Notes under the pieces: generated by a model
Told to the model about the DNA's origin: nothing
The model's database searches: none
What the model saw: only the letters and a program-made list of their open reading frames with translations
Assembly (NCBI GenBank): GCA_023150835.1
Contig: JAKLKB010000089.1
Location: forward strand, 1 to 28,621
From: Myxococcota bacterium
GTDB taxonomy: Bacteria; Myxococcota_C; UBA6777
Length of the DNA stretch: 28,621 nt
Reading direction: 5' to 3'
Position numbers and translations under genes: made by a program
Shown: one piece after another, positions 23,557 to 25,242 of the stretch
Layout: each line of letters starts with the position of its first letter
How positions within the stretch are numbered: position 1 is the stretch's first letter

Positions 23557-24081
23557 ATCAGTAAGGAAAAAGAAAAAGAACCCCGCATCAACGCTCGTAT
23601 CCGTGTCAAAGAAGTCCGCCTCATCGGCGCTGACGGCGAGCAGATCGGTATCGTCCCCACCTTGCGCGCTCTTCAAATGGCCGAAGAACAAGGTCTTGAC
23701 CTCGTCGAAGTCGCTGAAACGGCTACCCCCCCCGTTTGCAAGCTCATGGACTTCGGACAATTCAAGTACCAACAAAAGCAAAAAGCCAAAGAAGCCCGCA
23801 AAAACGCCACCCAAGTCCAAATCAAAGAAGTCCAATTGCGGCCCAAAACCGACGACCACGACCTCGACTTCAAAGTCAATCACATCTTCCGCTTTCTCGA
23901 AGAAGGCGACAAAGCCAAACTCACCGTCAAATTCCGTGGCCGCGAGATCGCCCACAAAGATCGCGCTCTCCTCCTCCTCGAAAAAGTCATCGCCGACATC
24001 GGCGACGAAGGTATCGTCGAGTCCCCACCCCGCATGGAAGGGCGCACCATGATCGCTATCATCGCGCCCAAAAAGAAATAA
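23557..24081 (+). CDS. infC: Translation initiation factor IF-3, ATC start codon
   Basis: IF-3 binds the 30S subunit, prevents premature 50S joining and checks the start codon-initiator tRNA pair. The 174 residues match the family: RINARIRVKEVRLIGADGEQ at the start, DLVEVAETATPPVCKLMDFG with the FKYQQKQKAKEARK linker, then the C-terminal domain (LRPKTDDHDLDFKV, KVKFRGRE-type strand, AIIAPKKK end). No ATG, GTG or TTG fits the N-terminus. A full AAAGGAG (23542-23548) lies 8 nt before ATC at 23557. The leader read upstream in this frame is not IF-3-like. Rare AUU or AUC starts in infC are known to allow IF-3 to repress its own translation. This is the first gene of the infC-rpmI-rplT cluster. 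Confidence 0.93.
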   Translation: MSKEKEKEPRINARIRVKEVRLIGADGEQIGIVPTLRALQMAEEQGLDLVEVAETATPPVCKLMDFGQFKYQQKQKAKEARKNATQVQIKEVQLRPKTDDHDLDFKVNHIFRFLEEGDKAKLTVKFRGREIAHKDRALLLLEKVIADIGDEGIVESPPRMEGRTMIAIIAPKKK

Positions 24082-24374: not shown

Positions 24375-24578
24375 ATGCCCAAGATGAAAACCAACAGCGG
24401 CGCTAAAAAACGCTTCCGCTACACCGCAACCGGCAAGATCCGACGCGCCAAATCCAACCACCGGCACATCTTGACCAAAAAATCACCCAAACGCAAACGA
24501 CGCCTTCGCCAAAGCGATCTCATCGACTCCAGCGATGAGCGCCGTCTCAAGCGCTTGATGCCCTACGGACAAAAATAA
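24375..24578 (+). CDS. rpmI: Large ribosomal subunit protein bL35
   Basis: This 67-residue, strongly basic protein is typical of L35. It starts MPKMKTNSGAKKRFRYTATG and continues KIRRAKSNHRHILTKKSPKRKRRLR, given here in two parts (KIRRAKSNHRHILTKK, SPKRKRRLR). The end includes KRLMPYG. It is a structural protein of the 50S subunit. CAGGAG lies 8 nt before the ATG. It sits between infC and rplT as usual, but with unusually long gaps on both sides (293 and 310 nt). Confidence 0.97.
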   Translation: MPKMKTNSGAKKRFRYTATGKIRRAKSNHRHILTKKSPKRKRRLRQSDLIDSSDERRLKRLMPYGQK

Positions 24579-24614
24579 TCCAGTCCACATCGGGCCAGAA
24601 CCATCCACCCCAAC

Positions 24615-24882
24615 GGACAGTTCTACTGTTTCTTTCGGGCTGTCCAATACAGCCCATCCCATCGAACGAATCCTCGTTCGATGTACCGAACGCTTCCCAA
24701 ACGGTTCGTGCGGTTTGTTCCACCAAACCACTGACCGCCGACTCAGACGAATCCCTCACTCTCTGTGATCGCGGCAGCTTGCACCAACCCCACCGATCGC
24801 GTTCTTCTTCCCATTACACAACACCAAGTTGCACGGAAGGGTCCATAAAGGCGGATACCGCTCCCTTCCTGCGCGAAGGAGG
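24615..24882 (+). promoter_or_regulatory. Structured rplT leader with a Shine-Dalgarno-sequestering switch
   Basis: The 310-nt rpmI-rplT gap has no gene. Its hairpins are GGGCTGT 24637-24643 with ACAGCCC 24649-24655, competing with GGACAG 24615-24620/CTGTCC 24640-24645. A perfect 10-bp stem joins 24660-24669 and 24674-24683. GGTTTG 24712-24717 pairs with CAAACC 24724-24729, competing with CAAAC 24698-24702. Near the start codon, CCTTC 24864-24868 can pair with GAAGG 24875-24879 and hide the Shine-Dalgarno. GGAAGGG 24835-24841 can instead pair with CCCTTCC 24863-24869 and free it. An L20-responsive element is the natural guess. Confidence 0.5.
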
Positions 24883-24888
24883 AAAAAG

Positions 24889-25242
24889 ATGAGGGTTAAA
24901 CGAGGTTTTAAGGCGCGACGTCGCCGCAATCGCAAACTCAAGCTCGTCTCTGGCTTTGTCTCGGGACGCCGACGCATCTATCGTCAGGCCATGGAAACCC
25001 TGCGACGTGCGCTCAATTATGCCTTCCGCGACCGTCGCCAAAATAAACGCGACTTCCGCAAACTTTGGATCGCTCGGATCTCCGCTGCGGCCAAAAACAA
25101 CAACATCTCCTATAGCAAGTTCATCCATGGTCTCAAACAAGCCAACTGCGTCCTCGATCGCAAGATCCTCGCAGATATCGCTGTGCGTGACCCCCAATCC
25201 TTCACCAGCTTGGTTGAACTCGCACGCAAACACCTTGGCTAA
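24889..25242 (+). CDS. rplT: Large ribosomal subunit protein bL20
   Basis: This 117-residue protein is clearly L20: MRVKRGFKARRRRNRKLKL at the N-terminus, GFVSGRRRIYRQAMETLRRA, YAFRDRRQNKRDFRKLWIAR, then ISYSKFIHGLKQA and LDRKILADIAV. L20 is an early 50S assembly protein and, in several bacteria, a translational repressor of its own operon. A strong AAGGAGG lies 6 nt before the ATG but can be sequestered by a hairpin. An upstream TTG at 24829 would add 20 residues within the leader and is rejected. No pheST follows. Confidence 0.97.
   Translation: MRVKRGFKARRRRNRKLKLVSGFVSGRRRIYRQAMETLRRALNYAFRDRRQNKRDFRKLWIARISAAAKNNNISYSKFIHGLKQANCVLDRKILADIAVRDPQSFTSLVELARKHLG

Follow-up and report, generated by a model that had tools for sequence, protein, structure and literature searches.

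What accounts for the 310 nt that separate rpmI from rplT in a Myxococcota bacterium, when the two genes usually lie close together in the infC-rpmI-rplT operon? The stretch of DNA analysed here (the window, 28,621 nt) contains the complete locus, which is laid out as follows.

up to 24081: infC, the first gene of the operon, before rpmI
24375-24578, + strand: rpmI, ribosomal protein L35 (Pfam PF01632, E 4.4e-27)
24579-24888, + strand: rpmI-rplT inter-cistronic leader, 310 nt, with excess secondary structure
24875-24882, + strand: Shine-Dalgarno (SD) sequence of rplT, GAAGGAGG
24889-25242, + strand: rplT, ribosomal protein L20, start ATG at 24889 (Pfam PF00453, E 3.1e-40)
from 25307: HU-like gene, 3' of rplT

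Since rpmI ends at 24578 and rplT begins at 24889, the gap measures exactly 310 nt. The original prediction had called this length unusual and the gap short in most bacteria. Both statements hold: the flanking genes are confirmed by Pfam, and the median rpmI-rplT gap is 33 nt in 22 diverse genomes and 64 nt in 72 Desulfobacterota loci, with 52 nt in E. coli. The infC-rpmI gap of the window is likewise long (293 nt). The reading preferred here, tentatively and with a probability of about 0.4, is that the rpmI-rplT gap is a lineage-specific autoregulatory leader of the L20 type working through a hairpin at 24835-24869, to which we infer that L20 binds and thereby represses its own synthesis.

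The coding content of the locus calls for a few observations. One + strand frame, which ends in a TGA overlapping the rplT ATG (as ATGA), runs for 117 codons without a stop across the gap and offers a TTG start at 24779 (span 24779-24892). As a small ORF preceding rplT it was set aside, only 1-9 codons being open in relatives; L20 itself could be extended in frame to a TTG, again a feature not common to the relatives. The small ORFs of the minus strand gave no Pfam match. At the head of the operon, infC apparently starts with the rare codon AUC (23557-23559), preceded by AAGGAGA, and in the three related loci L037, L038 and L039 apparently with AUU. AUU is also the start codon of E. coli infC, so that IF3 seems to have retained a rare start codon in the lineage.

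The upstream part of the gap carries the following elements.

24615-24655, + strand: competing hairpins, either 24615-24621/24625-24631 together with 24637-24643/24649-24655, or 24615-24620/24640-24645
24660-24683, + strand: perfect 10-bp hairpin with a 4-nt loop (24660-24669/24674-24683)
24688-24804, + strand: predicted branched domain, closed by helix 24688-24693/24799-24804 (mean pair probability 1.0)

The perfect hairpin and the sets of competing hairpins are thus where they had been announced. Dinucleotide-shuffled versions of the gap contain a perfect hairpin of 10 bp with P=0.0015; around the real one, two copies of CGAACG (24663 and 24687) compete for CGTTCG at 24675 and GGTTCG at 24703. 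Against dinucleotide shuffles, the fold of the whole gap reaches a z of -4.67 when some 30 nt of rplT are included and -6.46 for the gap alone. Among 32 windows of the same length sampled on the + strand (mean z -0.8), 31 lie above -2.9, and the lone outlier, at -7.3, contains a terminator-like hairpin. The latter corresponds to a long near-perfect inverted repeat at 938-976 (AAAAGGGGTCTAACG...CGTTAGACCCCTTTT), which resembles a bidirectional terminator. By sub-region, z amounts to -5.6 for 24579-24700, -4.3 for 24684-24805, -1.7 for 24795-24888 and 0.02 for 24806-24921; the strongly negative values are those of the upstream regions, and the excess of structure therefore lies mostly away from the SD sequence. 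A search of the rpmI-rplT gap for intrinsic terminators and sigma-70 promoters found none. An origin of the gap as a dispersed repeat was rejected, as the whole gap matches only itself in its own genome and sequences close to the hairpin core are no more frequent than background.

Near the ribosome-binding site, three strands can pair with one another or with the SD sequence.

24805-24811, + strand: UUCUUCC strand, predicted to pair with the SD region around the hairpin (pair probability 0.77-0.97 with GGAGGAA 24878-24884)
24835-24869, + strand: candidate L20-binding hairpin, with outer helix 24835-24841/24863-24869 and inner helix 24850-24854/24858-24862
24864-24868, + strand: CCUUC, a local anti-Shine-Dalgarno sequence that pairs with GAAGG 24875-24879 in the alternative fold

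The SD sequence is a strong one, its duplex with the anti-SD sequence being worth -10.6 kcal/mol for AAGGAGGA. According to the original prediction, two exclusive structures control access to it, the hairpin at 24835-24869 freeing the SD sequence and the 24864-24868:24875-24879 hairpin hiding it. Both pairings exist as described: GGAAGGG (24835-24841) pairs with CCCTTCC (24863-24869), whose CCTTC also fits GAAGG (24875-24879), and shuffling of the upstream DNA reproduces this two-arm competition with P of about 0.0025. The supposedly free state, however, involves a strand that had been overlooked. In the predicted fold of the full leader, the hairpin forms with a probability of about 1 and is enclosed by the 24805-24811:24878-24884 helix, which keeps the SD sequence paired (P about 0.95). 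In the alternative fold, 24805-24811 pairs with the GGAAGGG arm while 24864-24868 pairs with 24875-24879; it hides the SD sequence too, and is about 6 kcal/mol less stable, with negligible probability. As 24805-24811 pairs with the SD sequence once the hairpin forms, the site is predicted to be hidden in both states, and not in one of two exclusive folds as an on/off switch supposes. The probability of an unpaired SD sequence is about 1e-4 in the predicted ensemble of the full leader, figures of this kind being equilibrium predictions that ignore co-transcriptional folding and translating ribosomes. Such closure is ordinary, the opening energy being 5.5 kcal/mol versus 6.3 +/- 2.0 in shuffled leaders.

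The direction of control raises a further difficulty for a two-state scheme: if L20 stabilized the hairpin, the SD sequence would be freed and translation activated, which is the opposite of the known L20 feedback (PMC10931766). In addition, the complementary arms, whose absence from related genomes the original prediction had itself named as evidence against it, are absent from all three relatives checked. A switch of this type is thus very unlikely, and a riboswitch in the small-molecule sense finds no support. What stands of the proposed translational leader is the long structured RNA and a plausible link to L20; its simple on/off logic does not.

The link with L20 is plausible because the hairpin at 24835-24869 resembles the L20 site of 23S rRNA. 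L20 uses its C-terminal domain to bind 23S rRNA at the H40-H41 junction and, by mimicry, its own mRNA (PMC6962249, PMC10931766). Published L20 leaders (PMC7247131), among them a candidate from Deltaproteobacteria, vary in scaffold but retain an AA dimer along with two consecutive G-C pairs; both elements are present in the hairpin, a correspondence described post hoc. The bacterial consensus of the junction, GGu-CCCuAA-g-u-gcgggc...gcccgc-c-aCC, is kept by 13 23S fragments located by pattern in diverse genomes; no 23S turned up in the window's own genome when it was searched with the LSU family RF02541. The hairpin reads GGG-U-CCAUAA-A-G-GCGG-AUA-CCGC-U-CCC. It shares with the junction the order GGU, CC.UAA internal loop, purine of a purine-pyrimidine closing pair, one-base bulge and GCGG helix, together with consecutive G-C pairs (GG:CC) and a nearly empty opposite strand. 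It differs by a CCA in place of CCC in its loop, by lacking the A that pairs with U1004 and by an inner helix capped by a 3-nt loop.

How specific is this likeness? An earlier, looser descriptor of the L20 site was useless (1.6 hits per kb) and was replaced by a stricter version, which occurs 0.11 times per kb in background DNA. It is found in 2.8% of shuffled gaps in its loose form (P 0.028) and in 0.125% when a 7-bp outer helix is required (P 0.00125, strict), post hoc values that are optimistic because the tolerances were set with the hairpin in view. The window provides the sole match when 98 loci are searched across their infC-rpmI and rpmI-rplT gaps, 25 kb in total. A covariance model built from the 23S fragments gave the hairpin an E of 1.3 in 841 bases, below a coding-sequence match, and no match when the whole window was searched; the L20 operator known from E. 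coli escapes this model, which is therefore insensitive, a weak test either way. The idea of two L20 sites in one operon, based on the occurrence of GGCGGATAYCGCTC in both gaps, was discarded (P about 0.1).

Comparison with relatives bears on how widely these features are shared. The source genome is a 7.56 Mb MAG from a sparsely sampled group: five genomes were found in the phylum, its own included, and four of them hold rplT, namely the window and Deltaproteobacteria NP119, Myxococcales S139 and Deltaproteobacteria M3003, none of the latter three belonging to the window's genus. In the assembly of a genome of that genus (G001), rplT, rpmI and infC were not found. The rpmI-rplT gaps of the three relatives measure 405, 143 and 200 nt, with z of -5.8, -2.6 and -3.3. 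With gaps of at least 143 nt and negative z in 4/4 genomes, a long structured gap is a family trait. At the level of sequence, the gap of the window has no alignable counterpart in those of the three relatives, and four genomes are too few for covariation. Neither the arms at the SD sequence nor the hairpin mimicking the L20 site was found in these three, where the longest helix formed by the SD sequence with upstream RNA measures 4-5 bp in each and an open SD site is predicted (1.1-1.2 kcal/mol). The sequence GCUAAACC is common to L037 and L038 and appears as CCUAAACC in L039, in structural contexts that differ among them.

These data are also compatible with a structured spacer devoid of L20 sensing, made of hairpins that stabilize or punctuate the mRNA or of palindromic DNA specific to the lineage, with rplT translated from its own strong SD sequence and no ligand. 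The lack of sequence conservation among relatives, the position of the structure excess upstream of the SD region and an SD closure no different from that of shuffles all fit such a spacer, as do several long gaps of Desulfobacterota that are clearly repeat-derived (e.g. L115 and L114). It accounts less well for the maintenance of long structured gaps in all four family members, for the absence of dispersed copies of the gap from its own genome and for the rRNA-like hairpin directly upstream of the SD sequence. We regard it as a quite conceivable explanation; if correct, it would be a caution that a strong fold signal in a gap need not sit at the ribosome site. In L115, the rpmI-rplT gap (260 nt) forms a large imperfect palindrome of AGAGCAGGGAGCA-type repeats (z -8.7), apparently a repeat insertion within the r-protein operon.

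The gap might also owe its length to a promoter of rplT's own followed by a 5' leader. In two genomes of one genus, the gaps of L038 and L039 contain TTGACA-N18/17-TAAACC/TAAAGC, and the two align at this block with a Smith-Waterman score of 25 versus 15.7 +/- 2.5; moreover, TTGACA-N17-TATAA promoters lie upstream of infC in the family. However, the -10 elements of these relatives fit at only 3/6 positions, nothing promoter-like was found in the gap of the window, and a promoter leaves the structure unexplained, which makes this explanation improbable for the window. In L038 and L039 themselves, TTGACA and the TAAA-type -10 at 17-18 nt are accompanied by a hairpin with a UAAA loop, and the block is possibly an internal rplT promoter or a leader in its own right.

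Returning to an L20-type leader, known systems offer points of comparison. Like known L20 r-leaders, the candidate lies in cis in the infC-rpmI-rplT operon, 5' of the r-protein gene that it would regulate. In E. coli, the operon is under translational control by L20 through rRNA mimicry and an irregular-hairpin binding site (sites 1 and 2), features that the candidate would share. The E. coli operator, however, consists of a long-range pseudoknot and a hairpin upstream of rpmI, with rplT coupled across 52 nt. The gammaproteobacterial arrangement of a site 5' of rpmI and coupling over a short gap is not that of the window, where the candidate hairpin lies inside the 310-nt rpmI-rplT gap, about 20 nt 5' of the rplT start. 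The B. subtilis leader (RF00558) also binds L20 in the same operon and uses alternative structures, but it precedes infC and works through a transcription terminator, whereas the gap of the window has no Rfam match and no T-run after its hairpins. It is this difference in location that sets the leader of the window apart from its counterparts in E. coli and Bacillus. A close parallel, compared through its described features, may be the Deltaproteobacteria L20 r-leader of 2020 (PMC7247131), for which an rRNA mimic has been proposed in a similar, Deltaproteobacteria-like host group, again with two consecutive G-C pairs plus an AA dimer. The Rfam scan suggested by the original prediction, run at gathering score and at E up to 10, returned no family, L20_leader (RF00558) included, apart from a chance match to Giardia U4 (E 9.2); in 20 related loci it returned tRNAs only.

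Under the L20-type reading, control would proceed as follows. The structured gap would separate translation of rplT from that of rpmI. Free L20 would bind the hairpin at 24835-24869, which imitates the H40-H41 junction, and the bound hairpin, close to the rplT start and held within the predicted UUCUUCC (24805-24811):GGAGGAA (24878-24884) helix, would lock the ribosome site shut or block the 30S subunit directly, so that less L20 is made. If L20 binds there, repression is what the enclosing helix and the steric block would lead one to expect, in keeping with L20 feedback. A gap length and a structure beyond chance, with long structured gaps in all four family members, support such a leader. 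The region 24806-24921, which folds no better than shuffles, an SD closure at chance level and the absence of arms and mimic from relatives count against it. A more specific version, which we consider rather doubtful, is that a minimal 35-nt copy of H40-H41 has been built into a four-strand SD device (a:d around b:c, or a:b with c:d) by which L20 controls rplT alone, independently of rpmI, with an origin separate from that of the leaders of E. coli and Bacillus and of the one published for Deltaproteobacteria. L20 leaders are known from a few lineages, on unrelated scaffolds with the same small rRNA-like core. A further independent version between rpmI and rplT, if true, would show how easily the mimic arises and would provide a compact system for testing a minimal L20-binding RNA.

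A different structured element was observed in the infC-rpmI gaps of Desulfobacterota, where at least 17 loci carry a conserved hairpin, GGUGGCGUGRGC...GCUCACGCC-AUCUAUUUUU, upstream of rpmI (for example L063 2563-2616, L116 200-256 and L098 2671-2727). Membership of the window in this group was considered and rejected, a model of the hairpin (R2) matching neither the window nor L037-L039. The members scanned have no Rfam match, and the hairpin could be either a terminator or a further leader.
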